A stretch of 64,000 nucleotides of DNA from Lucinisca nassula. Lineage: Eukaryota > Mollusca > Bivalvia > Lucinida > Lucinidae. Below are positions 22,866-57,724 of the stretch, piece by piece. The DNA lies in contig OY757013.1 of assembly GCA_963580285.1 (NCBI GenBank), forward strand, positions 132,057,027-132,121,026. Reading direction: 5' to 3'. The notes beneath the pieces were generated by a model that searched no databases, was not told the DNA's origin, and saw only the letters and a program-made list of their open reading frames with translations. The position numbers and the translations under genes are program-made. The first letter of the stretch is position 1; every line of letters starts with the position of its first letter.

Positions 22866-25800
22866 CTATTAAGAAACAAAATAATTTCCATCTAGCAGAT
22901 TTTTCCGCCATTTTTCAAAGGGTTCTGTTCGCTTTTCCGTCTGTAAGCCCTGTCCCACTGAAAAAGGGGTCAACTCTTAAAGGAAAGAATTTGCTCCTCG
23001 GAGCAAATTCTTTCCTTTAAGAGCTGACCCCTATTGACTTGCTCCTCGGAGCAAATTCTTTCCTTTAAGAGCTGACCCCTATTGACATGGGAGACAAATA
23101 TACTTTTGCATGATTTGTCTACCCTGAAGGTGTCAATTCCCCTTTAATGACTCGAAAACTTTTATTTATCCCTACGGAACTTTGTGCCAGATACCTCGGT
23201 ACCTCAGTCGGGTGCGCGTCTGACTGGTGACAAAGTGGGTTGCGGGTTCTATATCTGTCGGGTCAACAAGATTCGTTTGTAGAGATTGCACATAAAAGTC
23301 TTTCCTACTGCCGTTCTCTACCTTCCCCCGACCATCAGGGCTTGAAGAAATAGATGGGCTGCATGATGCTTTAACGCAGAGCAGAAACCGATCCGCACAC
23401 GTGTACTGGTAAACCGCTTAGAGGATCTAAGCCTGCCCAGGCAATGCGATGTGAGTCCGTGTTTATAAACCTTATTGGTTTCATTGGGCGACAGGGCTTG
23501 AGAAGTCATTTCATCTCAATGTCGGGTAAAAGTCCCACAATTTTGGAAGCCACGTCTCCAAAATGACCTTTACAGTGTTGACAGGGACGTTAAACTTCAA
23601 ATCAAATAAAAAAAAAAACAACTACAATTCGCTGATTCACGAAGGGGTGTGGTCAGTTTCTGGCGTAAAATGCACACCATACTCATGAGTACTGATAAAC
23701 CCCTCATGTATTTGGAAAATGAACTTAAAGGAAAGAAACCATAACAAACCATTACGCAAACACGCCTATACAAATACATTGCCACCTTTATCGCCGAAAA
23801 GAAATGAAAATTTTATGATGAAACATTGTGATATTTTTCTTCAATTATGATTACGGAGCTTTTCCCTGAAACTTGTGAATACAGTGCCAACAGAAAAGAT
23901 AGAAACTCTCATGGCGGCGGGGTGATGTTGCTCGTTCACAGAGACATCTCTCATATGCCAGTCATGGAAATGGAAAACGACTCAGAATCTGTTTGGGTTT
24001 AGACTTTTGCAAACAAAGCTTCTCACTTTGTAGCAAGTTGGTATCGACCACCTAACGGCACAGTTGAAAACTACCAGTTATTTAAAGTTCAGCTTGATCA
24101 TCGCATTAAGTCACAGAATAAGTGTAAAAACTTCCCACAATACATGTTCTAGGTGACTTCAACTTCAGAGAGATCGTTTGGCCCGATAGGCTCAGCAAAC
24201 AAGGCACGATGCTGAGTCTGTCAGAAGGACAAATATTGGTTGACATTATGAATGATCATGGCTTACTTACCTGCTCGTGTTAAGAACACTTTGTATTTGA
24301 TTCTTACACCTTAACTAGGACAAGTACCAGATATTCAGTCTCCAGACAAATTAAGCGATCTTGATATTGTTTTCGGATTTACCACCTATAAAGAAACCTC
24401 GTAGAAAGGTGTACTTATATCAAAAGGGTGACTAAGAAACTATGGGGAAGGATGCGCTGAAATTGCAATGGAGAAATACTTTAATGGTCATTCAGCCAGG
24501 AGAACTTTGATTTGATAAATTCTTTCATTCAAGCATAGTCCAAAAATCGTATCCCCTCCAAAACTCCAAAACTAGCAGGTCCGCATTTTCGATCCCTTGA
24601 ATCATACTAGAAACCAGTGCTTCAGCTGAAGTGCATGACCCGCCAGATGCTTTTAGCTTTATGAGTGTTACCATATATGGGTATGGCGGCCATTTTGGTC
24701 ATGTGACCTGGACCTAAAACGGTTCCCCCAATAAATGCGCGTAAGGAACAAAAATATATCTTATACTTTAGTACTGTATTATGAATCGTTTGCAGGATAA
24801 AATGCATTCTCACTTTTCCAGTACAAAAGCATATGTGTCAAAGTTTGACCTAGGCACAAAGACGGTCAAGGTCAACCCAGGGTCACCATTTTAGCAATTT
24901 ATGATGGGCCTACGTCCTAGATGCTATTTATCAAGTTTCGTGGAAATCTGCCCAGTGGTTCTGGAGAAGACTATTTTTGAAGGGTTTTTACAATATATGG
25001 CTTGGCGGCCATTTTGATCATGTGATCTGGACCCCATGAGCAAATTTTGGTTTCCCTATCCTATAGAGGCTCCATATGAAATTTGACTTCAAACAGACCA
25101 ACGGTTTCCGAGGAGAAGCGGTTCGAAAATTTTCACATTTTCGTCTCGGCGAGGTTATACTAAATGGAATGTAATATTTCGCAAGTTCATTTGTAAGATC
25201 TCATTGATATCTATCAGTATGCCAAAAATTGTTTAAATATTCCACGCGGTTAAGTCACTATCACCAATTTTCACAAACGGGTTACGGACAGACAGACAGA
25301 CAGACCATATATGGCTTGGCGGCCGTTTTGGTCATGTGACCTGGACCCCATGAGCAAATTTTGGTTTCCCCCGTCCCATAGAGGCTTCATATGAAATTTG
25401 ATTTCAATCGGCCCAACGGTTTCCGAGGAGAAGCAGTTCGAAAATTTTCACATTTTTCGCCTCGGCGAGGCTATACTAAATGGAATGTAATATTTCGCAA
25501 GTTCATTGGTTAGATCTATTTGATATCTATCAGTATGCCAAAAATTGTTTAAATATTCCAAGCGGTTAAGTCACTGTCACCAATTTTCACAAACGGGTTA
25601 CGGACGGACCCAAAAAAGGTCAAGGTCAACCCAGGGTCACCATTTTAGAAATTTATGATGGACCTACGTCCCAGATGCTATTTATCAAGTTTCGTGGAAA
25701 TCTGCCCAATGGTTCTGGAGAAGACTATTTATGAAGGGTTTTTACCATATATGGCTTGGCGGCCATTTTGGTCATGTGACCTGGACCCCATGAGCAAATT

Positions 25801-28229
25801 TTGGTTTCCCCCATCCATTAGAGGCTCCATATGAAATTTGACTTCAATCGGCCCAACGGTTTCCGAGGAGAAGCAGTTAAAAAATTTTCACATTTTTTGC
25901 CTCGGCGAGGCTATACTAAATGGAATGTAATATTTCGCAAGCTCATTGATTAGATCTCATTGATATCTATCAGTATGCCAAAAATTGTTTAAATATTCAC
26001 AAACGGGTTACGGACGGACCCAAAAAAGGTCAAGGTCAACCCAGGGTCACCATTTTAGCAATTTATGATGGGCCTACGTCCTAGATGCTATTTATCAAGT
26101 TTCGTGGAAATCTGCCCAGTGGTTCTGGAGAAGACTATTTATGAAGGGTTTTTACCATATATGGCTTGGCGGCCATTTTGGTCATGTGACCTGGACCCCA
26201 TGAGCAAATTTTGGTTTCCCCCATCCATTAGAGGCTCCATATGAAATTTGACTTCAATCGGCCCAACGGTTTCCGAGGAGAAGCAGTTAAAAAAAAATTT
26301 CACATTTTTTGCCTCGGCGAGGCTATACTAAATGGAATGTAATATTTCGCAAGCTCATTGGTTAGATATCATTGATATCTATCAGTGTGCCAAAAATTGT
26401 TTAAATATTCCAAGCGGTTAAGTCACTATCACCAATTTTCACAAACGGGTTACGGACGGACAGACAGACAGACCATATATGGCTTGGCGGCCATTTTGGT
26501 CATGTGACCTGGACCCCATGAGCAAATTTTGGTTTCCCCCATCCCATAGAGGCTCCATATGAAGTTTGACTTCAATCGGCCCAACGGTTTCTGAGGAGAA
26601 GCAGTTCAAAAATTTTCACATTTTTGCCTCGGCGAAGCTATACTAAATAGAATGTAATATTTCGCAAGTTCATTGGTAAGACCTCATTGATATCTATCAG
26701 TATGCCAAAAATTGTTCAAATATTCCAAGCGGTTAAGTCACTATCACCAATTTTCACAACAGGGTTATGGGCGGACAGACAGACAGACCATATATGGCTT
26801 GGCGGCCATTTTGGTCATGTGACCTGGACCCCATAAGCAAATTTTGGTTTCCCCCGTCCCATAGAGGCTTCATATGAAATTTGATTTCAATCGGCCCAAC
26901 GGTTTCCAAGGAGAAGCAGTTCGAAAATTTTCACATTTTTCGCCTCGGCGAGGCTATACTAAATGGAATGTAATATTTCGCAAGTTCATTGGTTAGATCT
27001 CATTGATATCTATCAGTAAGCCAAAATTTATTTAAATATTCCAAGCGGTTAAGTCACTATCACCAATTTTCACAAACGGGTTACGGACGGACAGACAGAC
27101 AGACCATATATGGCTTGGCGGCCATTTTGGTCATGTGACCTGGACCGCATGAGCAAATTTGGGTTTCCCCCATCCCATAGAGGCTCCATATGAAATTTGA
27201 CTTCAATCGGCCCAACGGTTTCCGAGGAGAAGCAGTTCAAAATTTTTCACATTTTTGCCTCGGCGAGGCTATACTAAATGGAATGTAATATTTCGCAAGC
27301 TCATTGGTTAGATCTCATTGATATCTATCAGTATGCCAAAAATTGTTTAAATATTCCAAGCGGTTAAGTCACTATCACCAATTTTCACAAACGGGTTACG
27401 GACGGACGGACACACTGACAGACTGACAGAATGACACGGTGATTTTAGGGCACTCTTAGAAATCAACCGACTTCAGTCGGTTGCTTTTTCTGCGGGTCGT
27501 GCAATAAGAAGAAAGATTCGGCGAAGAAATAAGATTCATGCTAAGGCAAAAAAGTTGGGAAGTGGTAAACTCCGAGCAAAATTTGAGAACTTGAGACAAG
27601 AAATAAAGAATGACAGAAGAACAGCATGATTGGTATGTGAATAACTTGGTAGGTGATGTAATGGCTAATTCCAGAGACTTCTACAGATATATCAATACCC
27701 AGAAGAAAGACAAGCAAGGTATCCCACCACTTGATAAAAGAGTAGGGAACGGAGTTGCTGAATCGAACTCTGAAATGGCAGAGGAATTAGTTGGTCAATT
27801 CAATTAGGTTCCATTGACTGGAAGATCGGCCCTTTCATGAAAAATAGTGTTGTGTCATCGGCGGGAGTGATCAAAGCACTCAAAGGCTTGAAACCAACTA
27901 AAGCTTTAGGACCTGGTGAGCTTCATCCAAGAGTCCTGAAGGAACTAGCAAATGGGTTAGGTACCGTTTTTGTTTTCACATCTTTTCCAACAATCTCTTG
28001 ATACGGATGAAATCACTAAAGAATGGCTCCTAGCGAACATTTGGTTTAAATAATATTTTATTTCAAGCTTTGATATATTTACAATACACATATTTTAGTA
28101 CGATGTGGCTAAAGGATCTGACAGTAAGCCTTGTGGTTTATAGACGTCATCTCCTGGAAATAAAATAGTGTACGACATAACTGAGTAGCAAGATTGAAAA
28201 TATTGAGACAGAATAACTGTGCGTGACAA

Positions 28230-28300
<71 letters not shown>

Positions 28301-31300
28301 ACTGGACCCTGCATGAAGTCTGGACAGGAAAATTAGTAAAGGACTACTATAGGAGCTGCTTAATTATAATAGCGAACATTTGCCCACTTTTCAATATAAA
28401 TGCTCGAAATTATCGCCCGGTGTCCCTGACCTGTGTTCTGTGTAAATTGCTTGAACACATAATCCGCACGGTTATTAATGATTGGGTAAAATCTTGGACC
28501 AAGAGGGGAAGATGGACATATGGGCTTGGAGAAGGCTTTTGACACTCCACCTCATGAACTTCTTAAATCCAAATTATTTGGTTATGGAATTAGGGGTAGG
28601 GGGGCGGGGCTCTCAAATGGATAGATTCCTTCCTTTGCTGCAGAAAACAGCGTGTTGTTGTAACTGGTGAATCCTTTGTATGGGCTCAAGTTTTATCTGG
28701 GACTCTCTCTGTACATTAATGATTATGGTATTTCCACTGACATTGACTACTAACTAAGACTGTTCGCAAACGAGTGTGTTTGCTATCGGGAAATTAGAGA
28801 TAAAGAGTACTCACTGAAACTTCAGAAGGATATAGATAAGAAGGATAAGAATGTTTGGCACGGAAAAGGGCATGGGGTGTCAGCCCGTTAACTCGTAAAC
28901 AGGAAGAGAACAAAAAAATCGAGGCTTCATACACCTTAGAGGGAACAGTCCTCGAAAATGTGAATTTCAATAAATACCTTGGTGTTACAATCAAACACGA
29001 TTTGAGATGGAATACGCACATTAGCAACTTATGTACGAAGGCGAATGGAACACTTGGTTTCCTGAGGCAAAATCTTCACCAGTGTCGACAGCATATAAGG
29101 GACTTGTTCGCGCTATCTTGGAACATGGTAGCTGCACCCAAGTGTAGTCGTCCTTAATGAAGAAACTTGAAAAGTTCAGAATAGAGCTGCTAGATTGGGA
29201 ACAGGCAATTACTGCTTGGAAATTGGAAGCATGACGAGAATTCTAGGAAAATTAAGATGGGAGTCTCTCAAGAAAAGGAGAAGGGACAGAAGGCTCATAC
29301 TCTTATACAAAGGTCTAAAGGGTGCTGCCAGCATTTTGACAGTTGACCTTATTCCCCTAGCCAGGCACGGTAGAAATCATCATTCACTGACGTTTCAGAC
29401 CCCCACTGCAGAAAATAACATCTATAAATAATCGTTCTTCCCCTGAACCATTAGCGATTGGAACCGCCCTTCCCGATTCGATCATATTCACTACAGAAGG
29501 TGCAAAAGATAGTGTAGCTAAGTTTATTACTTTGATGAGAACTAGGGACTAACTCCCAGTATCACATGTCCTGCCTGGTGTATGAATGTCATTTGACGTG
29601 TCACCAGTAACAATTCTGATTCTGAGTCTAATAAGTACACACAACATTCCTTTAGTGTACAGCAGCATTATGCCCTCTTACATCACGCTATGAATACCTG
29701 TGGCAAACCAAGTGCACAATAAACATTGAGACCACGGTGTAAGCTTGAAGATTTCAAATTAGGGTCTGAAGTTTTTAACTAGGGTTTGAAAAGTTTAAAC
29801 CACGATTTCAAAGCGAAACTGTACATTACTTCTTTAAAACATAGATTCAACTTTTAAACCGGGGTTTTAATTCAGTTTAACTTCTATCCTTAGTTTAAAA
29901 ACTTCAAACCCCAGTTTCAACGTCAAATTTCAAAACAGGGTTCCGTGCTGATGATCTGTCTCTGGTCGGGCCCATCGGAGTCTAATGGTGGTCTTCTTTT
30001 TCTCCAGCATTTCAGTGGTTTCCTGCTGTCGCGTCCTCACCGTTGTTTCATCTCTGTGGTTGTTTGACTTATCGTGTTCACGGAGACGATGCACTCATGG
30101 GTTAGGATGCCTTCATGTGGACTGAACAAATTATTTGTCTACATCGCGACGAAAGTAAGGGCGAGGATTGTGGCCACGTAAAACTGATTTAAGCACCCCC
30201 CCCCCCCCCGCCAGTGGAATTCGTTTCACTGACCTTTCCAAGGCGGTTCTACTCTTTTGGTTTATTTGTTATGGTTTGTCTTTGGGTGTTTGTGTCGCTT
30301 ATAGTATTTTGTTTTGGATAACCAATTGGCCATTTTTAGGGAAAGTAACTGTCCTTTTGGCTTTCCGCTATTAATGTTTCCATTAGGGTCTGTTATTTCA
30401 TGTTTGTGTTTTTTTCCCTTTGGTCTCCCTTTGGGTTTCAAACCCTAGTTTGAAAACTTCAATCTGGGGCTTCAAGTTCAAACTGTGCTTTAAAGATTTA
30501 TTCTGCATTTGGCTTGCGATAAATACGCTCAATGTCTTAAACTACTCCGGTCTCGAACAGATTTTCAAAGTTCCAACGGAGTTCGGGCCATTAACCCATT
30601 GTATACTAGTGAACTCTTCCATTGCTTTTTTGGACAAGTCCATTAGTCATATCAGGGATGGTAGGCCTATGTTTTCATTTTATTCTATTTTTGACGGAAA
30701 ATTCTGTTAGCAAAAAGTGCAGGCTCTGATCAGACGCCGCGTTCTGCGGCGTCTGATCTGAGCCTGCACTGTTTGACAAGATACCCTTTTGAGTGTTTCC
30801 CGCCTGCAATGGGTAAAAGTTTAATCTTTTTTTTTTTACCTTTCTCAATTTTTTCACCAACAGACGTGAGGAAATGTAAACCGACGGCATAGTTTATTGG
30901 ATCGCTAGATTTTGTTCTACCAGCTCCAAGCTTTCCTGTTACAATGGCGCATTCAAGAGAGTCGATGTCATGTACGAAACCTGCAAGGTAAGAATGTAGA
31001 AAACCTGCAAGTTAAGAACATTATCACTACACATGTTTCGCAAAATGGAATTGCGTCTCTCACTTCGTGAAGAACTACAATTCATTTTAAAATATGTTTA
31101 TCTCCCAAATATCAAATTATATTTCTCGAAATTACGATCTATATTTCAATTCTCTTTTTAGCATTTTATTTCCTGTATATAAAATGAGGTACATGCATTC
31201 ATTACGAAAACACGCCTATACAAATACGTTGTAAATTTCACCGCCGGAAAAACGAAAATTTTAAGATGAAAAATTGTGATATTTTTTTTTTCTGCTGAAA

Positions 31301-34300
31301 ATATAGATTGTTGGTACTCGTTAGAACCGCCTCGATGAGGCGGTTCTAACGGGTACCCACAACCTTTATTATAGAGCAGAAATAAGAAAAAATAGGTTTA
31401 CTCCTGCGAACTCTATAAAAGTGGGGTTCAAGGGGGGGGGGTCAAAATTATATAGGCGTGTTTTCGTGATGACAATTTGTTTAATCATATTTTATTGCAT
31501 ATAACAGCAAGCAATGGGGTTGGGCCACAAGTTCTCACAACATTATCGTGATGACAAAGACTTGTTAGTGGGGTTTTACAAACTAAACGTTCTCTTGACC
31601 TTATTATTTTAGTGTTCGTCTTGTGAAAATCAATTAAATAGTCCGGGAAACGTATTCAATTAGTCTTCAGAACAAGAGCAAAACATTTGAAAGAAAATGG
31701 TTGTGCGAGATATAAAAACTAAGAAACTTGCAAAGGAATCAGTTCTCGAGAATGAAAAGAAAAAAAACGACGAATTCCAGTATTTCAACTTACACTGTTT
31801 CCCAAATGCCCTTCTCGATGGCTCCATCGGATGCGCGTCTGAATTATGATCAAGACGGGTTGCGGGTTTGATTTATGCTGGGTCGGCAACATTCTTTCGT
31901 AAAGATTGTTCATGAAGTCCTTTTGACGGTTGTTCTCTCCCTCCCGCTGATGAAGAACCCGCTGATGAAGAAAGGCAGTGTGTACTGTACTCGCTGACCG
32001 CTTGTGTGTAAGCCTTTCCAGGAAAAGTGTGGTTAGGTAAACTGTCAGGCTCGATATGACCTTGATAATGTTGACTGGGTCGTTAAACTCTAAACGAACG
32101 AACCAAACAACCCTTAAGCCTATGGAAAATGTGTTCAAAGCAGTTCAAGTAATTAGCGTAGATATCTTTAAAAAAAGCCTTTAGGACTTGTTGCTATACT
32201 TCTTAAATTTTAACAAATTTATTTCACGATCCAGCAAGGAGTCCGAAAGGTGCAGCCTGAATGGCATACAGTGTAGACCCTGATCAGACTACTCCTGATC
32301 TGCAATGTTTTTTCAGGCCTATCTGACCAAATACTTAGGATCATTACGGTATAGCCGTTGAGGATTAATTTCAGCGCCTTGTCAGGATACAAAGTGGAAC
32401 ATTTTTAGAACATCTTTATCCCGGGCTTCTCCAGAATTTCGGATGAGTTTGTAAACCGAGGTCCCGTCTCCGTAGGGCCTTAGCTGTTGGTCAGACGTAG
32501 TAAAACTCAAACAATTACTCCCTCTTTAGAACATCTTTTCCCTATCCCGTATAATGTATATTGGAATCGCCTCACGGAGTGCATATAAAATACACTTTGA
32601 AAATACATTTTAAATTATCATTAGTTTCTTGACTTTGAGAACTCACAAACGATATGAATCACTAAAGTTTTAAAACATTGCGCATTCTTAACACTCATCA
32701 ACAATAAACATATGATAAAAACTTACCTGAATCTGCACATTTCACTTCTGTTGTATGTTTTGCTTTTGGCAAGATTTTCATTACGTCAGTTTCTTTTGCG
32801 CACAATTTGTCCGCAACTTCCGGCTGCACACCTTGTGCTTTACACATGGCGGCGAACTTCGCTAAGGCAGTGCCATCATGAAGTGTGTCATTTATCAAAT
32901 GGAAGCCTTGTTTTACGCCTGTTGCTTTCCCAGACCGGTACAGAAGATGCCCACCTGCAATAGCAATGCACAAAGTCTACGCCACACAAGGTAAAAGGTC
33001 GTTAGCCTAGTTTTCTTTGGTGAGCAAAAAATACTTCCGGTTCTATACTCCACCCAAGATGAGGCACACATTCTTTTCTGTAATAGCTAATGTTAAAGAG
33101 CCGTCCTATCAATAATAATTACCTTGTTCAATTTTAGACATTCAACTGCTTCTTTTTCAAATAACTTAAGGCAAAAAATGTATCTTCTTTGCTCTTTTCG
33201 TTCAACAAATGAGGTGCATCAACTACTTTTTGTCGTAAGGTTAGGTAGTTTTAAAACAAAACGCGCGATAAATGTCAGAAGAGACTGGTTCTATATCATT
33301 TAATATTCAAACTATCAAAGATAATTTATTTTTGCGAAGCAGAAATGACATTAATTATATGATAAATGTTTGAAAATCTCAATGACACTGTACGGAAATG
33401 CATATTTTGCCAACCAGATAAAGAAGTACTCTACTAGTGGAGGTATTTGCACATGCGTAATAAAGGTTACATGTAAAAGCATTGCATCCGTCTATGGATC
33501 CGTCGTGCCTTTGCAGATTTTTTTTATGTACATGCGGACAAAATTTAAGCTATTAAAACACTCAGTGTATTTTGGGGGTCGATTGTTTGTCAGCACGTGA
33601 CTATCACTGATTTTAAGGAAATCAAGGTAATAGTGATTTACGTGACAAAGGCCTTGCTATTCGTCAGAGTGCTGTTTAAGCGGTTTTTCTATAGACTCTG
33701 AACTGGAATCATGTGTTAGGCTTGGTACACAGTGAAGACCCAGACCGACACCGCAGAATGCGACGTCTGGTCAGGGTCTACACTGTTTGCTTTAAATACT
33801 CGTATTTAAGGGTTAAACATTGCGATAACACATCCGTGTGATATAGTATAGTTTTCGAACCTCTAAAAAGGCATTTTTTATGAAAATTTGTGATATTTTT
33901 TTCTTATTTATACTCCAAATATAGGTTTTGGGTACTCGTTAGAACCGCCTCATTGAGGCGGACCGCCTCATTGAGGCGGTTCTTACGAGTACCAACAACC
34001 TAGGTCTTGGAGCAGAAATAAGGAAAATAATGTTTACCCACGAAAACCCCAGTTTTTGTATATAATGTGGGGTTTGGTGAGCAAATATTATTTCCGGTCC
34101 ACCGAAGATGAGGCACACATTCTTTTCTGTAACAACTAATGTTAAATAGTCGTCCTATCAACAATATTTACCTTGATCAATTTTAGACATTTAACTGCTT
34201 CTTTTCCACAAAACCGAAACTAGCTAGTCTGGCCCAGAAAACACGTACACTCCTTATTTTTCAGTTCTGTGGTGTAATCCTTGCTTCCAAAGGATAACCC

Positions 34301-37300
34301 TTTTATAGTACATATTTAACATCACTATAGCTGGTGTATGGGAATGTGTGGCGGCGGTAAAACGTCTCCCTGCCCTACATCACATTGTAGATTATATTTT
34401 CTTGTCCCATGGGATCATTGATTCCATTGTGGAATTTTGAAAATATCTGAGGGTCACTGATGAGGCCTTATTGGCCGAAACTAGCTAGTCTGGCCCAGAA
34501 AAACACGTACACTCTTTATTTTTCAATTATGTGGTGCATTCCTTGCTTCCAAAGGATAACCCTTTTATAGTACATATTTAACCTCACTACAGCTGGTGTG
34601 TGGGAATGTATGGCGGCGTTAAAACGTCTCCCTGCCCTACATCATAGTGTAGATTATATTTTCTTGTCCTTTGGGATCATTGATTCCAATGTGGAATTTT
34701 GAAAACATCTGAGCGTCACTGATGAGGCCTAATTGGCCGAAACTAGATAGTCTGGCCCAGAAAACACGTACACTCCTTATTTTTCAGTGCTGTGGTGTAT
34801 TCATTGCTTCCAAAGGATAACCCTTTTATAGTACATATTTAACTTCACTACAGGTGGTGTGTGGGAATGTGTGGCGGCGGTAAAACGTCTCCCTGCCCTA
34901 CATCATAGAGTAGATTATATTTTCTTGTCCTTTGGGATCATTGATTCCATTGTGGAATTTTGAAAATATCTGAGGGTCACTGATGAGGCCTAATTGGCCG
35001 AAACTAGCTAGTCTGGTCCGGAAAACACGTACACTCCTTATTTTTCAGTTCTGTGGTGTTTTCCTTTCCGCCAAAGGATAACCCTTTTATAGTTCATATT
35101 TAATGAGGTCTTTATTTTACGAACTTGTTCACGTGATGACATGTAAGTCTCCCGTTCAGGCCCATTTTCCGAATTCACTCTCAAAGACAATCGATCCAAC
35201 CGTGATTTCAGTGCTTTGATTGTATATTCCCTATTGCGTTTCAGTCGAGCACATCTTCACACCAACCACTCACAAAAGCTGTAGGCAAAGTTTCTTTCTT
35301 TTAGACTGACGATCAAGATCGGATATAATGAAGATGTATAAGGATATTCCAGCTGACGTCAGTAGCCGCCATTTTTAATTTTTCGGAGGTACATGCTTCG
35401 GTTTTTATCGTGTTGATATTTTTATTTGAAGTTTAACGTCCCCCTCAAAACTGTATAGGTCATTTTGTAGACGTTGCTTCCAATTTTGTGGGACTTTTAC
35501 CCGACATTGAGATGAAAAGTCCTGTCGCCCAATGGAATGAATAGGGTTTAAAAGCAATGGGCGGTCCGACTCGCACTCGCTTTGTCTGGGCAGGCTTAGA
35601 TCCTCTAAGCGGTTTCCCAGTACTCGTGTGCGGCCAGTTTCAGCTCTGTGTGGAAGCATCATGCAGCCCATATATTTCTTCAAGCTCCGATGGAAAAAAA
35701 TGAAAAAAAAAATGTCAAAGCAAGCGGAGAAAATTAATAAACAATCACATTCTATTGCACAACAAAATCAGCGCTAGAAGTGGTATAATGGATTGTTTTC
35801 TCAGAAAAAAAAAATCGGATTATTGAATCATTGTTTGTTTGTATGGTAGTTTAACGGCCCAGTCAACACTACTTTAGGTCATTTTTGAGCCGGTCAGTTT
35901 ACCTATCAACATTTTCCTGGGATGGTGGCTTATACGTAAGCGGTTAACCAGTAGAGTGCACATTCCTTCAACAGAAACGGACCACTGCCCTTCCTGAATC
36001 AGCGGAAGGGAGAGAATGGCCGTAGAAAAGACTTCATGATCAATCTCCACCAAAGAAGTTGCCGACCCCGGCAGGAATCGAACACGCGTCCACGGGATCA
36101 CCTGTCAGATGCGCATCCGATTGAGCTACCGAGGCCGGCAATTATGGAACCATTCTACCTGAAAAATGGTGAGCTGTTAACGACACAGACCCTCCCTTAT
36201 TTGGCGCTAACATGCGCTGTAGATAACTTCATGGTTTCGTTTGACAGAAAATTCCTCTGCTGGTAATTTGCCTTCAACCGATTCATTAATTTGAATTTGT
36301 ATCCTCTTCTTGACGATGCATTCAATCTGTTTGAGATCCGTGATTAAAAATATATATACAAGCTAAAGTTTTGGGATTTGATTTTGTAAACAACAGCTAC
36401 ATGTGACCGAAAAAATGACTGCAAAATTAATATAGGTTATAGCGAAAACTGTAATCTTACATGTACCTAATTTGACTGTAAGGTCCATAAGATCATCTGG
36501 TCCATTACCATGGAGACAGGCAATAGACTCGGCTATCTCGAGGGAGTTACCAACCATACGGCCCAGTGGGGAGTCCATGCATGTCAACAGAGCTACGGTG
36601 CGGATTCCAATTCCATTACCAGCTGCAACCTAGAAATAAGCAATAACCCGCGCGAAAATAAGTCTTCTGGCAATTGCGTTCCACAAACACCATGATCAGT
36701 TTGCCTTGTTTCCTAAACACTCAGAATGATAACTGCAAGTTCTACTTTATTGTGCATTTCGACATGTAGCAGTCCAATAAACCAGCCATTTTACTGCTGC
36801 TGAGTTTATTATCATTATCCTATGCTGCTCCGAAATTCTTTATCTATATTGTCTTATGAAATATCATAAGACCCTGTTATGGATATGATGTTTTCCGAGT
36901 GAGCCTTTGTACTAGTAACCAACACACAGTCATCCTCTGAAAGGAAATTTCGCTATGAAGTTTACAGTCCACGTAGCACTCCTTTTCGAGCAGTTACATG
37001 GTCAAATTTCCTGCCTTCACTCAAAGACACTCGAACTACAATGAAAACTGGATCCATAGAGAATTTTTTTACAAAGCTCCAGGTACATGTATCAATATAT
37101 TTAGGAACAGTTAGGAAATTTTTATCAGATTTTTTTTTAAAGTTGTTCTGCGTGTACACATTACGTAGATATGATTCTATTGGGTACACACACCAGTTCT
37201 TAATATTATACAAGATCGAATAGATATACAGTGGAACTTCAATGGCTCGAACACCTTTGGGGCCACGAAAATCTGTTCGAGACAGGGATAGTTCGAGTCA

Positions 37301-40300
37301 CTGATGGCTACTGCCAGGAGGCATAACGGGGTTAATTTTACTATTTCCTGCGTTCTTTGATAAAAATGTATGCTGTGTGTACTCTTTAGAATCGCCTCGA
37401 TGAGGCGATTCTAATGAGTACACACAGCATATATTTGCAAGATAAAAGTTGAAAATCTCCTTACTTATCCTGCACTACTTCTTATGCGGAGGACTTACCT
37501 AGGGACTAAAAAAATTGGTTCGACTCAGCCATGGTAAGCAAGCCATCGGTGTTCGAGCCATCGAAGTTCTACTGTATAACATTAATCCACATGGTCTGTA
37601 GCTTAAAAAACTCAAACATTTATGGTCCTGAAAGTATTCGAGTTATTGAAAAAAAAAAATATAGAAGTGATGGCAATTATCACATTACGCAAACATGCAT
37701 GCCTATACAAATACATTGCCACTTTTATCGCCGTAAAAAATGAAAATTTTAAGAAGAAAAATTGTGATATTTTTCTTATTTCTGGTCAAAATATAGATTG
37801 TCGGCACTCGTTAGAACCGCCTCATCGAGGCGGTTCTAACGAGTACCCACACTCTATATATTAGAGCACAAATAAGAAAAATAAGGTATACCCCCGGAAA
37901 CACCAGTTTTACTATATAAAAGTGGGGTTCAGTGGGTCAAAATTATAAAGGCGTGTTTTCGTGATGTGGAATCGGTACAATTAACCCACACCGCACAACA
38001 GAGACATCACAGGGAAAGAAACACGAACATGAAACAACTAGACCCTAATGGAAAGATCACTAGAGGAAAGCCAAAATGACAGTTACTTTTCCACCAAATC
38101 GACTATCCAAAACAAAAATATATAAGCGATGCACAAACTCAAAGACGAATTGTAACAAAAATAAACCGTGACAGAAGAACCGCATTGGAACGAACGGTTA
38201 GTAAACATTATTTCACTGGGGGTGGGGGATGGGGGTGGGGGAATGGGGGTGCTTAAATCGATTTTATGCGACCGCGATCCTTGGCATTACTTCTGTCGTG
38301 GTTTTGACAAATAATATGTTCAGTCCGCATGAAGGCTTCCTTAATCATCAGTGCAACATCTCCGAGAACATAAAAATCAAACAATTGCAGATATGAAGCA
38401 ACATCAGGTACCAACAAGCACTACCTAAAATTAAATGTTAAGTAACCAGATTTTTATACCCGATTTTGACTTTGTTGCAATATTTAATTACATGATTTTT
38501 ATGGTCGTAAGACACGAAGTTAATCATTTAGAAAGATCAGTGGTGGAACAAGAGCTTGAATTTGCAATAAAACGTGCTTTGTATCGTCTTTATGAAGTTA
38601 AGGTAACCAATATAACGTCGGAAGCTTTCGGCTTTCTGTAATACGTACAGTTAACTTGGTGGCTGAATGACAAAGGTGGTCATTAACTGCAGTCCTCTCT
38701 AAAGCCTAAAGTTGTAGTTCATAGGCCTTAGTACCACCATGGTCTTGCTGAGAGTATTGACATAATGGGGCCGTCAAACAACGACTGCATTGTTAGCGGC
38801 ATTGTCTGCCGGAGCCAAAACATGCGTATTATGAAATTCTTGAATACGCTTCTTATGCATTTCTTGAATACATAGTTTAAGAAGACGAGTTCAGTAGGTG
38901 TAAAGTAAGTACAGTGGAACTTCGATGGCTCGAACACCGATGGCTCGTTTACCATGGATGTTTCGAACCCATTCTTGAGCCCGTAGCGAAAAACCTCTAC
39001 ATTAGAAATAGTGGGGGATAATTCAAAAGATTTAAGTCTTTTATCTTGCAAATGTATGCTGTGTGTACTCATTAGAATCGCCTCGATGAGGCGATTCTAA
39101 TGAGTACACACAGCATACATTTTCATTATAGAACACCGAAAAGATGTCTAAAAGTATCTCGTTATGCCTACTGACAGTAACCTCAGTGGCTCGAACTACC
39201 CCTGTCTCGAACAGATTTTCGAGGTCCCAAAGGTGTTCGAGCCAGCGAAGTTCGACTGTAGAAAGAAATTCGTGTTCACTAGTTTCAAAATGCTAAGATC
39301 TTTCTGCTCACGATCTCTCGCTTATACCACCAATTACCGAATTCATGCAAGGCAACAGCGATTTCTTCTTTGCACTTATTGAAATCAAGTTTAGAAGGAA
39401 ACCGACACTTCGGTCCTTTAGAAGTTATATTTCGTATCCTAGAATCAGGAATAATCTTTAAATTGCCGGTAATTATATGCCCCGCAGCAGGATAGCAATA
39501 CACTGAGTCGTACAATCTCAGGTATCAGGAGTGTTAGTGTCAATATCAAGATCTGAAACAAGTTTCTTAAAATTCAAAAAGGTTGGTCATATTTATAGCA
39601 AATTATGGGTGTTTTATTTTTTTGAAAATAAGTAGGAATGGATGAAATCATAGAACTGCCCCAGAAGACACTAACCAAATCCCTTATTAATGAAAGTTGA
39701 AAGATATTTTGATGTAATGACGTTTGTGATTAATTTCAGAATCAATGTTTGATTATACAGTCATGAAGTATATCACGCATACCATCCGTCCAGCTAGTTC
39801 TCTCGCCACTGTTTCGTCTTTGATGACTGCTCCTTTCCCAACCTTGACATCAAGGACCAGAGTATCTAACATCTCAGCAGCCTTCTTAGAAATGATGGAA
39901 GCTTTCAAATGACAAAAAATAAACTAGAGCTTTCAGAGGATCTGACTGTAGCCCCGCTGCAGCACTATTTTAAGGAGAAAGACCCATAGTGTTTCATGCT
40001 TACCAGATGCCAGCTAGTTAGGACATGATAAGGCCTAAAATAGCTGTGTTTCCGCTAACATGCCGACAAAGGGTATGGGTCGGTAGGTCGCTAAAACTTT
40101 TTTATTTTTTTTTTTTATTTTTTTTTTTTTTTTGTCAATTGTTTATTTGATGGAAAAAAGCAAACTAAACTTATAAATGCTAAATTCTAACTCTATTATC
40201 TTAAAACATTCAAATGAGCCCCGCCAAGCGAATTTGTGTCTTCGAGCATTCCGTCATGACAAATTTTAACTGCGCGTGCCCAGCCATTCAGAGGGGCCAG

Positions 40301-43300
40301 GGATATGGCTTTCTGTCTGAAGGTTCCTCTTGATCCACTGCTTAAATGAGCGAGCAGCGAAGGTTCTGGCGAGACTGCGCGGATGCGCAGGCTCGCCTGA
40401 ACCTTCGCTGCTCGCATTGGCGATAAGTACCAAAATCGCTTGACGGGGCCCAAATAATGAGGTTTTAAGCATTAACGAAGCAAAAGAACAGGGTTTCAAT
40501 TATTAATTTTGCTATTTTGACAGTTTTATGAATTTTGACAAATTAAGATCGGTAGGTAAGAAAATAGTTTTATCTTTTTAGTATGGCAATAATATTTGCA
40601 GGGTCGGCAGGAAAAATCAAGGTCGGTCGGGTAAGCGGAAACACAGCTATTTTAGGTCTTATAACATGGCAATGTAAAATCAAATCATTTCATTGATGGT
40701 AAACTTTAAAACCTATCAAGGGATGTAACTCCAAGAGTTATGAACCCTTGGCTCTAATTTCTCTACATCAACCCACCGCCCATGTGTGTACCAAATTTCA
40801 ACCTTGTAACCTAAATAGTTCTTGAGATAAGTGTGACGAAAATTTTATCTGATTGGGAAGGAAGGACGGACGGACGGGCGGAAGGAAGGACATGGCAAAT
40901 CCAGTAAAACTCACCCCCATGGGCATCATTTGGACCCGAAATCTCATGGTTGGTCACATATATCAACAACAGAACCAGACATGGTGATAATACAGTGGTT
41001 TGTTTGTTGGTGTTTGTGAGTTTAATGGCCCAGTCAACACTATTTAGTTCATATCGAGCCAGCCAGTTTACCTAAGCGCACTTTTAATAGACATACGTGT
41101 ACACTCATTATTTTGGCAATAACTGACAACTGCGCTTCTTAAATCAGCGTATCCTACTGAGCTAGAGATACTGGGACACAGCAAGCGAGAAGGGGTAACT
41201 AAGCGAGGGCGATTGGCGAAGTCGCACAGAAAAAAGTCTGTACACAACCCTAGTCAGAATACAGTAAAATTTATAAACAGTCGAACTTAAATGGCTCGAA
41301 CTCCTGTGGGGCCATGGAAATTTGTTCGAGACAGCGGTAGTTCGAGCCACACGATTGCATACAAAAATGTCAATATTCTGCCATTAGTAAACGCGACGTC
41401 GTTAAGGACGTCGTATGTGGAACGTTAAGAAACGTATCTAGCTAATTTGCATATTTAATCCACTAGTGGATTATCGAAAATAATACATGGCGTTATTACA
41501 CTCTCAGACGCGACGTCATATGATAAAAATGTATATTGTGTGTACGCATCAGCATCGCCTAATCGAGGCGATTCTAATGAGTACACACAACATTCATTTG
41601 CAAGATAAAAGAAAACAAAATCCCTAAATTATCCCTATATCGTAAGGAATTCCCTGCGGACTCAAGAACGGGTTCGACTGATCCATGGTAAACGAGCCAT
41701 CGGGGTTCGAGCCATTGAAGTTCTACTGTAGATGACCGACAAAGGTTCAGACGCCCAGTCCCGCACAGTCCCGCCCAGAATCTTTACTGCTCGCTGACAC
41801 GAAGAGGAAATCTTTCGGCAGCTTCATGCGTGTAGCCATATTAGTTGGCTGCGAACACGTATTTAAGTGGAATAGGATCACCTGACATATTTTTACATCA
41901 TTTTTCAATGGGAGCGTCATTTTGGACTTCCTGTCGTCTTTTCTATCAACTCTTTCCCACTAAAAAGGGGTCTGCTCTTAAAGGAAAGAATTTGCACCAC
42001 CGGAGCAAATTCTTTCCTTCAAGAGTCGACTCCTATTGACATTGTAGACAAAAATACTTCTGAAGGCGTTGCCTCCCCTGGATGTAAGAATGTTGCTTAG
42101 GGAGTGTTTAGGGCATTTTCGTCGCGCGTAGACTCAAACGTTCCATCCCCTCTCTGGTCAAACCAAATTTAAAAAAAAAATAATGAACTGGGGTTTTTGT
42201 TTGGTGTCGCCTTGGACAAAAACGGAATGTCCATAGTTATAAAAATAATGATTACTTTCTTACAAGTTATGAGACCGATACTCTCAACGGTTCCCGTCAC
42301 GTCTCGTGTGGCGTACATGATTTTATCAGCCGGAACCAGATTACTAGTCTGACCCACAATGCAACAGCCGACTTTCTCTAGGACCGCTTTCATTTCCCGA
42401 TGTGACAATGCTACACGAAACCCAGGGATAGCCTCAAGCTTGTCCAGTGTACCACCTGTATGGCCAAGACCTCGACCAGACACCATAGGAACCTGCCAAT
42501 TGAAAGCAAGTATACAATCTTTAATTCCTTCGTGAAGTTATACGTTATGACACAAAGAATAGTTTTATATTTTGTTTCGTATTGGGTGGTTGGGTGAGGC
42601 TAAGGGTGACGTGTGCCTTGCTTTACTGGGGCGTCCGGATAATGGACAAGGCAGGCTGTCCTTGTAGCAGGTAAGGGTAGGGGAGGAATGTTGTTATTTC
42701 TCCCGCTTCTACACTCCCATTTATTTTCCTCTTTCTCATCTGCCCCTCACTTTCATTTCCTCTGCTATCTCTATATCTTTTTTATCACTCTCTCTGGGAT
42801 ACGACACAAAATGACCAACAAGGGTTGGTGTGTCGTTAAACCCAAAACAATCGTCTTTTAAATTATCATTGATGTTGTGTGTATTTTATTTTATATTTAT
42901 TTTGATTTTTCGGCCATTTCATGAATATACCAATTGGCGTATATGCAAACAGGTCTGGGGTTATAAAAAATAGAAGTGAAGGCAGTGATCAGGAAGCGAT
43001 ACAATTAACCCACATCTCCCATCAGAGACACCAAAGGGAAAGAAACATAAACATGGAGTAACTAGACCCTAATGGAAACATCACTAGCGGAAAGCCAAAA
43101 GGACAGTCACTGTCCCACAAAATGGCCAAATGGCTATCCAATTTCCAACATAGAAAAAGATATAAGCAATACACACATACAAAAACAAGCTATAACAAAA
43201 ATAAACCGCGACAGAAGAACTGCTTTGGAACAGTCAGTAACATGTATTTCACCGAGGGGCTTAAATGTATTTCACCGAGGGGCTTAAATCAACAATCCTC

Positions 43301-46300
43301 GCCCTTACTTCTGTCATGACTTAGCCAAATAACTTGTTAAGTCCGCTTGAAGGCTTTCTAACTAATCAGTGCTATATCTCCGAGGACATGAAAAACAAAC
43401 AAATACAGAGACAAACAACGGTGAGGACGCTACAGTATGGAATAACTGAAAATGCTGGAGCAAAAGGAAACCAATCGTTAGACTCCGGTGGGCCCAACCA
43501 GAGACAGAACATCAGATACCAGCCAACAATTTACGTAAAAGTAAATTTTAAGTAAGCCTTTAAGATCGAACCATCGTAAAATCTGAGGCCTGACCCGCCG
43601 GCGTGCAATCAAAGAGGGAAGCAAAGTTATCAAAGGTGATTGGGTTAACTACCATACATGCAGTCTGTCGTATAACATTTCATTTTATATCGAAGATTGA
43701 TCTAACGAAATCGAGTACTGAAGCTATTGCAAGCATATATTTGTTTTAATTTATACATTCACGTAAGTCACAAAAATCGGGTTTCGATGGGCCTAGTTGC
43801 AGAAAAGGTGTATTTGTTTTTGTTTGTTTGTTTTTAGGTTTTAAATTAACGTCCCCATCAACACTTTATAGGTCATTTTGGAGACGTTGTTTCCAATTTT
43901 GTGGGACTTTTACCCGACAATGAGATGAAAAGACATCACAAGTCCTGCCGCCCAATCAAACCAATAGGGTTTATATGACCCGCATCACTCCTGGGCATGC
44001 TTAGAACCTCTGTGCGGTTTACCAGAACTCATGTGCGGTTGGTTACAGCTCTGCGTGGAAGCATCGTGCAGCCCGATCTATTTCTTCTAGCCCGGGACCA
44101 CCGAAAAGATTTAAGTCCAACGTTGAATTTAGAAACTTAAATCGGAATGACGTCTACACAACCTAGAAAATGTCTATACGTAGTTTATGATACCAATAAC
44201 CCTGATTAACAAGTTTAGCAGTTAACAATTTATTACGAGTGTTAAAGTCATTTATATGACTAGACACTGCAAAATGTAAACACCATAGGGTGACGCTCGA
44301 GGAACATCACCATGTAAGAAAGGAAATTTACCATCTCAAAATCAAAATCATCGCGTTTATTATAAGCTTTGTAAGAAACGTCTTCAATAGATAAATGCAA
44401 ATAAAAAAACGGTGATTAGGTATCAGAAGAATTCACTTTATTTAACCGAAGTCCGGGTTGTGCGCGCGCGCGTGTGTGTGTGGTTGTGGTGGGGGGGGAT
44501 ACTTACTATTTTGTAGCTTAAAAGTGTTTTGATGCATTAACTGGTAATTTGGTAATTCTCATTTGCAATTCTTAACTTGTAAATGCATTTGCTTGTCATT
44601 ATATCTCCCCCGAAAACATTTGTTTTCGGAAAAACATTGTTTTTCCCCCAGGCGTCTGTCTGTCCGTCTGTCACAAAATCGTGTCCGCTCTATAACTTGA
44701 AAACCGTTAAAGCTATCGTCAAGAACCTTCATATAAGTATTAATCAATATTAGATGACGTGCAAAGCGCAAGATAACTCTCGCTTTATTGAGTTATCTCC
44801 CTTGGAAGTTTGTCATTATGTATGTATGGGCATATCGTGTCCGGTCAATAACTTTTTTATTTTAAATGGATTTTGAAATTACTTGGCAGAAATATTAACC
44901 ACCATAAGACGATGTGTGGCGCGCATGACGCAGGTCGGTACCTCAAAGGTCAAGGTCATACTTAGAGGTCAAATTTCAAAAAAGGTACCTTTTTCGTGTT
45001 TGGTCAATAACTTTCTTATTTTTTGATTGATTTTGAAATTACTTGGCAAAAATGTTAACTACCATGAGAGAATGTGTTGCGTGCATGACCCAGGTTGATA
45101 CCTCCAAGGTCAAGGTCATACATAGAGGTCAAAGTTAAAAAAGGGCCCTTTTTCGTGTTTTGTCAATAACTTTCTTATTTTTTGATAGACCTTTAAATTA
45201 CTTGGCAGAAATGTTAACTACCATAAGTCGATGTGTAGCACGTATGATTCAGGTTGGTACCTCAAAGGTCAAGGACATACATAGAGGTCAAAGGTAAAAA
45301 AGTGGCCCTTTTTTCGGGTTTTGCCAATAACTTTCTTATTTTAAGATGGATTTTGAAATTACTTGGCAGAAATGTTAACCACCATGAGAGGATGTGTTGC
45401 GTGCATGACCTAGGTTGTTACCTCATAGGTCAAGGTCATACTTAGAGGTCAAAATTAAAAAAATGAGCCTTTTTCGTGTTTGGTCAATACTTTTTGGCTC
45501 CCAATTTCGATTGGAAGCCATTTAGATTGGATTGGTGATACCCCAGTTTATTTCTAACCGTCTTATGACGTAACTAGGAAAGCCCTACAGATAAGACTGC
45601 TCTCCACATATTTACGCAGTGAAAACTCGTTCGGAATAAACAGGAAAAGCGCCCGTCGATGTCTATTTATAAAGCGTTTCCGGATATCTATTTATAAAAC
45701 GTTCCCAAGAAGTCAAACCAAGAAAACAAAGTTACAGTAGAAACACATCCTGCTTTCACTTTCGTCCTTTTGTTAACCCTGGCCTCTATGGGTTCCAAAA
45801 AATATTCCACCTTTATAAGTCTGGAGTGGTCAATTTCTAAGCACAGGGATGTCATAGTTTCGTGTTAAGTTTTACAAAAATGCATGTACGTTGAGCAAAG
45901 TTTAACAGTTTAGATCTCGATCTGATGCGGCGTCTGATCTGGACCTGCACTATTTGCCAATCTCTCAAAAAGGGCCGCTATGCATATATGGGTTAATTCC
46001 AATCATTGAAGGTCAACGTAAAAAAGCAGGAAAACCCATTTCCCATTATCTTAACTGCCGTATTCGGCGTAATAAGCGTTTGTTTTGATTTGGTCTCTGC
46101 ATTGGCATCATTGGGATAATTATAAACAAGTTGGCTGCTTTCAAAAAGCATCCAATAGGTTTGGTCTTGTCAGTCTACATTCTGATTTGAAACAGGCTGA
46201 TATCATTATCCCACTTAATGTATTTTTTGAATAAAAATACTAAACTTTAAACGTTCCAAGGCGGTTCTTCTGTCGCGGTATGTTTTTGTTATAGTTTGTC

Positions 46301-56593: not shown

Positions 56594-56611
56594 CTGAAGT
56601 GGAGTCAGATC

Positions 56612-56824
56612 TTAACCCTTGTCCTGCTGAGCCCGGATATGCCTTATCTTTGAAACAATGTAGATCCAGATCAGATGGCTTCTGAAGAAGCCATCTGATC
56701 AGGATCTTCATTGTTTGCCATCCAGTTTATGGATTTGTTGCAATAATTTGCATCAAGTAATCTGATTGGCTGATTATCAGTAGTGGGTGTGACACATTTA
56801 AATATTCAGCAGGACAAGGGTTAA
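56612..56824. mobile_element. MITE-Q, complete, next to TYMP exon a
   Basis: TTAA at 56612-56615 and 56821-56824. Ends CCCTTGTCCTGCTGA and TTCAGCAGGACAAGGG match exactly. Opposite internal orientation to 56098-56310. Confidence 0.9.
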
Positions 56825-57406: not shown

Positions 57407-57686
57407 CATTACGCAAACACGCCTATACAAATACATTGCCACCTTTATCGCCGAAAAAATGAAAATTATATGATGAAAAATTGTAATATTTTTCTTATTT
57501 CTGCTCAAAATATAGATTGTGGGCACTCCTTAGAACCGCCTCATCGAGGCGGTTCTAACGAGTACCAACAATCTTTATCTTAGAGCAGAAATAACAAAAA
57601 TAAGGTTTACCCCTGCAAACCCCAGTTTTACTATATAAAAGTGGGGTTCAAGGGGGTCAAAATTATATAGGCATGTTTTCGTGATG
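57407..57686. mobile_element. MITE-X, complete
   Basis: CATTACGCAAACACGCCTATA to TATAGGCATGTTTTCGTGATG-like; core 57513-57577. The two flanks have no duplication. Confidence 0.88.
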
Positions 57687-57724
57687 TTAATAAACCCCTT
57701 CATCCCTGTACTTTAAGCAAACCG

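Follow-up and report, generated by a model that had tools for sequence, protein, structure and literature searches.

A tandem array of hammerhead ribozymes in an intron of the bivalve Lucinisca nassula, located in the 64,000-nucleotide stretch of DNA analysed here (the window), raises the question of how animal retrozymes are copied back into their host genomes. The question is addressed below through a rule for the 3′ ends of such arrays, which was found when the array in the window was compared with its relatives elsewhere in the same genome.

Two hammerhead arrays in the window

The first array occupies positions 34214–35103 of the plus strand and was described by Tandem Repeats Finder as 3.4 copies of a retrozyme unit with a period of 261 and 92% matches. 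It is opened at its 5′ end by the 3′ half of a hammerhead (CCGAAACTAGCTAGTC, 34214–34229), which ends at a cut site, and continues with three complete type I cores at 34457–34490, 34719–34752 and 34980–35013, each of which is expected to be cut after its last nucleotide. The predicted cut sites (after 34229, 34490, 34752 and 35013) delimit units of 261, 262 and 261 nt, matching the 261–262-nt released RNAs of the original prediction; its count of three full hammerheads and one partial motif in a 261-bp array was also borne out by the repeat analysis, the core positions and the structural descriptor given below. From the last cut site, a 90-nt tail ending in CATATTTAA (35014–35103, plus strand) runs to the genomic 3′ end, which is the usual terminus of the family. 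The position of the array, on the plus strand within an intron and antisense to TYMP, was likewise correctly recognised, as flanking minus-strand stretches match the solved thymidine phosphorylase 2wk5 (residues 257–312 at 36366–36629 and residues 307–383 at 32701–32976).

The array reported at the outset is thus real, but the account was incomplete, since the family is represented by a further array of about 1.8 units, which had been missed at 52534–52068 of the minus strand and is sense to thymidine phosphorylase. Its two hammerhead cores lie at 52452–52419 and 52191–52158 (minus strand), with cuts expected after 52419 and 52158, and the latter core carries one stem II change (GGCT for GGCC). 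The 3′ tail (52068–52157, minus strand) again measures 90 nt from cut site to genomic 3′ end and stops at the same place as in the first array.

Application of a descriptor comprising CTGATGA, a stem II (3 bp or more), GAAA, a stem III (3 bp or more), UH and four contiguous stem I pairs yielded exactly five full hammerheads in the window, three in the first array and two in the second, against none in 200 first-order resampled windows. These motifs have the conserved type I core (CUGAUGA, GAAA, UH) and three stems, and are open at stem I. Their stem III consists of three pairs and a tetraloop and, together with its loop (ACUAGCUAGU), forms a perfect palindrome, so that two hammerheads could also pair and be cut as a dimer. 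The significant Rfam covariance score called for in the original prediction was not obtained: nothing in the whole window reached the gathering threshold, and the best sub-threshold match in a 1-kb stretch was Hammerhead_3, with 19.8 bits against 48.5 (E 0.27). This miss is weak evidence against a hammerhead, because Rfam likewise made no hammerhead call for another array of the family, L021, or for three motifs from viral contigs that resemble hammerheads and share the core found here; the gathering threshold seems to be insensitive to hammerheads of this form. The tandem type I hammerheads with their short stem III were rightly compared with metazoan retrozymes in the original prediction, and the element is best filed as a metazoan non-LTR retrozyme, a known kind.

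Genome-wide copies and the ends of the arrays

The 34-nt consensus core has 15,322 exact copies in the 2.93-Gb genome and the retrozyme tail has 23,350; the core pattern read backwards has no exact copy. The copies are dispersed, with 39 examined regions located on many contigs. Each of the listed arrays has different sequence at its sides, which, as regards an LTR, a primer binding site, a polypurine tract or a protein, leaves just the unit itself.

The new part of the finding is that the 3′ end of the arrays usually lies about 89 nt past the expected hammerhead cut. This end was located 86–94 nt past the cut site in 42 of 44 array segments, with a mode of 89 (15 of the 44) and two exceptions at 77 and 97, and it fell within 10 nt of a cut site in none of them. 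These 44 were retained from 46 segments found, after segment 14 (71% identity, with an end set by divergence) and segment 24 (a duplicate locus of segment 23) had been dropped. A position-ordered sample, considered without two older pieces of L078 that end at 84 and, at the locus edge, at 142, gave ends at 88–92 for four of five distinct arrays, one of which (L076) is already among the 44, and at 72 for the fifth. The 5′ ends are variable, spreading from 11 to 258, although they are rare in positions 1–90 (5 of 44, where about 15 would be expected if they were even). Segments longer than one unit, with cut sites inside, make up 41 of 43 in a set that was picked by full-unit match.

Inspection of the 3′ junctions by eye showed neither poly(A) nor any other tail as a consistent feature, and flank duplications did not exceed chance (the longest is 5 bp, against up to 9 for mispaired flanks). 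The letters CATATT are followed by T in 30 of 42 cases and then by A in 30 of 42, according to end tables that leave out segments 14, 16 and 39. Six array segments in inverted-repeat hosts with empty copies showed, by eye, an empty target with TTTA-like letters at the 3′ junction. The flanks are not enriched in AT, which makes up 63% of the nearest 15 nt and 62% at greater distance.

Comparison of the units within arrays revealed 53 sites with a variant common to all units of an array, whereas 500 reshuffles gave a mean of 4.6 and a maximum of 18; only 12 sites were common to some units only. The duplicate pair L032/L033, with one shared site each, was kept in this count, and 4 of the 21 multi-unit arrays had no variant common to all units. 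In L021, three identical units all carry four differences from the consensus, and L045 is a homogeneous long array of 8 full units; at the same time, many multi-unit arrays are composed of diverged units. As far as sequence comparison can tell, the shared variants suggest that neighbouring units would have arisen from single templates, most simply circles. Among 84 full units, 1.05% of letters depart from the consensus in the hammerhead core region against 2.29% in the rest. Counted over 70 distinct motifs, variation in the catalytic core (0.021) comes close to that of the surrounding sequence (0.026), and within this family none of the 13 stem pairs showed a two-sided, covarying change, the changes being one-sided only.

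A possible route back into the genome

The arrays are probably genomic copies of a non-autonomous retrozyme, made via a circle and internally started, target-primed reverse transcription. Transcripts of an array would cut themselves at each hammerhead, and the unit-length RNA would be closed to a circle, giving the 261-nt circular RNAs envisaged in the original prediction. Nicked target DNA, in many cases with TTTA-like letters that match the RNA, would then prime a reverse transcriptase. The enzyme would begin internally, near position 89 of the RNA, make one to several laps of the circle and fall off at a variable point. It would most likely be of the Penelope type, given that one enzyme of this type has its internal start equally far from a hammerhead.

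In place of the circle, a linear multimer transcribed from a young homogeneous array could serve as the template with all else unchanged. The near homogeneity of some arrays (L021, L045) fits such a template, as does the unprocessed RNA that was the main in vitro substrate of the Anolis element in the passages of PMC11167929 drawn on here. However, many arrays are diverged, and yet the partly shared sites are few compared with those common to all units, which leaves this variant a minor, though appreciable, probability. It is unlikely that the template was a linear RNA whose transcription terminated, or which was processed, at position 89 and which an ordinary LINE copied from that end, as happens with SINEs. 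Target-primed copying would indeed give fixed 3′ and variable 5′ ends, but the multi-unit segments would require RNA that escapes cleavage and nevertheless ends 89 nt past a cut; moreover, the units of one array have variants in common, and neither a consistent 3′ tail nor flank duplications above the chance level accompany them.

Explanations at the DNA level fare considerably worse. Plain satellite DNA, spread and homogenised by unequal exchange with the hammerhead as an incidental feature, would account for the tandem arrangement and for homogeneous long arrays such as L045, but it is very improbable in view of the short arrays at many places, which mostly stop at one 3′ position but begin at varying points, and of the abundance of exact cores. 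Both window arrays also lie inside a short inverted-repeat element, where their placement is almost identical and their orientation equal, as if they were its cargo and had been moved as DNA. For the first array, the left part of this host site, outside the retrozyme, is at 33818–34082 (plus strand) and the right part at 35104–35138; the approximately 140 bp leading from the element to the array (34073–34213, plus strand) are a diverged copy (85%) of 33016–33165, and their left edge overlaps the edge of the element. The corresponding parts for the second array are at 52535–52754 (minus strand) and 52067–52033. In our own reading, however, only about 6 of the 46 segments reside in such elements, at differing positions and in both orientations, and array-free copies of the element are common in the window, so that transport as its cargo is scarcely credible. 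A composite transposon was dropped on the same count, with two more segments having a one-sided hit 27–42 bp away, and the cargo explanation in its general form is refuted by the positions and orientations of the segments across the genome.

The L. nassula genome contains tandem elements that combine reverse transcriptase and GIY-YIG domains; an open frame of this kind would not fit into the 261-nt unit and is encountered in other parts of the genome. A search of 23 GIY-YIG loci (of 138 GIY-YIG matches) revealed no hammerhead, with patterns that were unequally applied: the strict pattern to L053–L072, a looser one to nine of the 23, and a core listing with Rfam to L073–L075, most of the loci including just about 1.5 kb to the left and right of the GIY-YIG part. 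These loci and the retrozyme have no 3′ sequence in common apart from an 89-nt match in L061. The latter was considered as a 3′ tail shared with a Penelope-like element and rejected, as it is a piece of retrozyme that was inserted at a site found empty in L051.

In a broader and tentative reading, to which we would give somewhat less than an even chance, animal retrozymes could be minimal Penelope-type templates, consisting of one hammerhead and the enzyme's internal start about 90 nt past the cut, with arrays made in one step from laps of the circle at TTTA-like nicks. This reading is weakened by the flanks, which are not AT-enriched, and by the Anolis enzyme, which does not need matching letters. 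The Penelope origin or mobilisation of retrozymes and the passage from circle to multimer have already been proposed in print; the shared start site as a link between the two kinds of element is new. Together with one-template arrays, the usual spacing between hammerhead and 3′ end provides a rule that can be measured wherever a genome contains repeats of this type. If true, the rule of a 3′ end about 90 nt past the cut could hold in other animals, and it would add genomic support to the published model of RNA circles copied into multimers.

Comparison with known systems

Metazoan non-LTR retrozymes are described, in the sections of Cervera and de la Pena (2020, PMC7229834) used here, as many-copy tandem units within 150–450 bp with a type I hammerhead, the mussel having about 5000 hammerheads in 350–390 bp repeats. 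The Lucinisca element resembles them in hammerhead type, tandem size range and copy number, but its 261-nt unit has its own sequence. According to the same sections, published retrozymes have target duplications of more than 4 bp when these are present, whereas none above chance was detected in Lucinisca; a fixed 3′ end, as in the Lucinisca arrays, goes unmentioned there. The newt and axolotl hammerhead repeats are also tandem with a weak stem III, and the dimeric cutting reported for them would be possible in Lucinisca, judging from the palindrome; at the same time, the Lucinisca stem III of three pairs and a tetraloop is nearer to the two-pair invertebrate form described in these sections (PMC7229834).

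No relatives of the retrozyme were found in phage records. The viral contigs gave three single matches to the core pattern (L001–L003) and none to a second pattern; these motifs have the same core and GGCC/GGCC stem II as Lucinisca, but occur as one exact match per stretch and have, by eye, a longer stem III.

Penelope-like drivers of retrozymes have been proposed, in the parts of PMC7229834 and PMC7761336 considered, from shared hammerheads, tandem copies and co-occurrence. Poseidon of Anolis, as presented in portions of Frangieh et al. (2024, PMC11167929), is like the Lucinisca retrozyme in its tandem copies and hammerhead. The retrozyme unit, however, has no room for a Poseidon-type protein, and no hammerhead was seen in the sampled Lucinisca GIY-YIG loci. 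The Poseidon enzyme prefers AT-rich targets, needs no matching letters and uses two adjacent start sites, while the Lucinisca flanks are not AT-enriched, the junctions have matching letters and the 3′ ends form one cluster (PMC11167929, same portions). Reverse transcription of Poseidon starts at ORF positions +111 to +118 and its hammerhead is cut at +26 (Frangieh et al. 2024), which by our own subtraction places the internal start 85–92 nt past the cut, against 86–94 nt for the Lucinisca 3′ ends; this matching distance is a likeness of working and not of Penelope membership.

Hammerhead arrays in the window

One 261-nt repeat forms two arrays in the window, array 1 at 34214-35103 on the plus strand, with three full hammerheads and one partial, and array 2 at 52534-52068 on the minus strand, with two full hammerheads. 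All five full motifs carry the CTGATGA core, GAAA and GTC, a stem II of 4 bp with a five-base loop (GGCC/GGCC in four, GGCT/GGCC with a G-U pair in the fifth), a stem III of 3 bp with a tetraloop, and a stem I of at least four contiguous pairs. A structural descriptor returned exactly these five motifs in the window and none in 200 resampled windows, and the hammerheads of array 1 announced in the original prediction were thus borne out. The covariance-model check proposed with it gave another outcome: the Rfam search of the window missed the hammerheads of both arrays at the curated threshold. Hammerhead-like motifs with the same core, the stem II of the retrozyme and a longer stem III occur in three viral contigs (L001, L002 and L003) and likewise received no Rfam hammerhead call at the gathering threshold. 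The assignment to the retrozyme-type repeats stands, and retrozymes of such kind are already known, according to excerpts of PMC7229834 and PMC7761336.

Motif scans of other tandem arrays in the window, at 24993-25609, 26154-27419 and 60547-61486 (units of approximately 315 and 308 bp), found no hammerhead. Tandem repeats of 159 bp are present at 44835-45493 and 54691-55228 and presumably resemble a bivalve satellite. Judged by its repeats, the window may come from a mollusc.

The exons of thymidine phosphorylase lie on the minus strand of the window. Array 1 is antisense to this gene, as predicted, in the intron whose flanking exons align to residues 257-312 and 307-383 of a solved enzyme; array 2 is in the sense orientation, between exons 56340-56726 and 42172-42537. 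Both arrays are located inside copies of a short inverted-repeat element, close to its right end. This element measures approximately 280 bp, has the palindrome GCCTC-GAGGC at its centre, exists in two forms and is common across the window (for example, 57407-57689, 37683-37967, 31199-31472 and 12830-12553). The approximately 140 bp directly 5' of array 1 (34073-34213) resemble 33016-33165, about 1 kb away, and may have been added as filler when the template was switched at the insertion's 5' end.

As circles, the four full window units folded to energies under the shuffle mean (z = -2.8, -2.3, -1.6 and -2.8; 100 shuffles each), with 58-64% of bases paired. For none of the three array 1 motifs, taken in isolation as linear RNA (55-56 nt), was the minimum-energy structure the complete hammerhead fold; since tertiary contacts are absent from plain energy models, these linear folds say little. 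Cutting as dimers is possible, because the stem III strand and its loop together read ACUAGCUAGU, a perfect palindrome, and from related motifs in PMC7761336 we infer that dimeric cutting may actually occur.

The retrozyme family in the genome

The source assembly of 2.93 Gb contains 15,322 copies of the exact consensus core and 23,350 of the exact consensus tail (19 nt), and neither pattern read backwards was found in it. For the array sample, the best 40 of 4460 candidate places were scored (117 match rows), and 39 regions around them were taken; their segments and the two window arrays make up 46, a set picked by similarity to one window unit with no selection for an end, yet not random. 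End counts refer to 44 segments, one old copy and one duplicate being left out.

The hammerhead core region departs from the consensus at 1.05% of letters versus 2.29% elsewhere (84 full units). Among 70 distinct motifs, no two-sided change was seen in any of 13 pairs. The 13 catalytic letters of these motifs differ nearly as often as their neighbours (2.1 and 2.6%), and the core is intact in 54 of the 70; single copies therefore look near neutral from their sequences, and constraint would act on the source copies.

Array ends and the template

The 3'-end rule and the apparent one-template arrays are the part deserving further work. The 3' end lies 86-94 nt past the predicted cut site in 42 of 44 segments, most commonly at 89 (...CCCTTTTATAGAACATATTTA); the two exceptions are at 77 and 97, and no segment stops at the cut or up to 10 nt from it. 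All of these are alignment ends and may take in a few target letters matching by chance. A separate, position-ordered search gave five distinct arrays, four ending at 88-92 (one of them also among the 44) and one at 72; beside one of these arrays lie two older pieces, one with its end at 84 and the other reaching the locus edge. A 91-bp retrozyme fragment, spanning approximately the stretch between cut site and usual 3' end, is present at L061 2120-2211 and L051 7801-7711, with a matching empty site elsewhere. The titles and abstract openings listed in searches of the open-licence literature contained no report of a fixed 3' end of retrozymes. In the genome region L026, two arrays in opposite orientation abut tail to tail by their 3' ends, as though a single TTTAA site had served for both.

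The 5' ends range over 11-258 of the unit, and only 5 of 44 fall in positions 1-90 against approximately 15 expected, perhaps because the enzyme seldom stops just beyond the hammerhead. Flank duplications of 3-5 bp accompany 24 of 44 segments; mispaired flanks, as a control, gave duplications of at least 3 bp in 47%, up to 9 bp. After CATATT, T comes first in 30 of 42 cases and A second in 30 of 42 (each position counted separately), TA making up 7.8% of flank dinucleotides, and empty targets show TTTA-like letters at the 3' junction (by eye, in six segments in inverted-repeat hosts with known empty copies). A few matching target bases may therefore guide the start of copying. Overall, the flanks are 63% AT versus 62% in the neighbourhood.

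Across 21 arrays, each with two or more full units (one locus enters twice), 53 variant sites were common to all units of an array, a count to which column 35, variable across the family, adds in several arrays and which includes some gaps; random dealing of units gave a mean of 4.6 and a maximum of 18. Another 12 sites were partly shared. The three identical units of L021 have four common differences from the consensus, and the four units of L039 share five such differences; no all-unit site was found in 4 of the 21 arrays (L016, one in L017, L022, and L045 with its eight nearly identical units). Mean divergence is 2.7% within arrays versus 3.9% between them. Shared variants and divergence fit repeated copying of one circle: an array would form as the circle is copied over and over, and its units would then decay separately. 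A homogeneous linear multimer may instead have served as the template, which we consider the less likely case.

The copying enzyme

The enzyme may be of the Penelope type or, less probably, come from a LINE. A usual 3' end that lies within the unit, 89 nt downstream of the cut, would not be expected if a cleaved linear RNA were copied starting at its terminus. GIY-YIG frames are common in the source genome (at least 138 matches, with 150 of 746 candidates scored), and two families combine reverse transcriptase and GIY-YIG domains, as two-frame elements (L073, L074 and L075). In tandem, these elements are approximately 99.9% identical to one another. A copy has its 3' end at a point corresponding to just ahead of where the next unit's first frame begins, and (AT)n follows. 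No hammerhead was seen in 23 GIY-YIG loci, scanned with patterns of unequal strictness over often partial elements, and a hammerhead-bearing partner element was not found among them; a LINE may be the partner of the retrozyme.

Penelope-like elements have been proposed as retrozyme drivers (in parts of PMC7229834 and PMC7761336), and an origin of retrozymes from them by reduction has been suggested (in a portion of PMC11722881). According to sections of Frangieh et al. 2024 (PMC11167929), the enzyme of the Anolis Penelope-like element starts inside its own RNA, at +111 to +118 of the ORF, with the hammerhead cut at +26. That element favours AT-rich targets and needs no matching letters, whereas the retrozyme flanks are not AT-enriched and some junction letters match. 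By subtraction of the same figures, its start lies 85-92 nt past the cut, much like the 86-94 of the retrozyme 3' ends, and this agreement, based on one element, is the strongest hint at Penelope-type copying.
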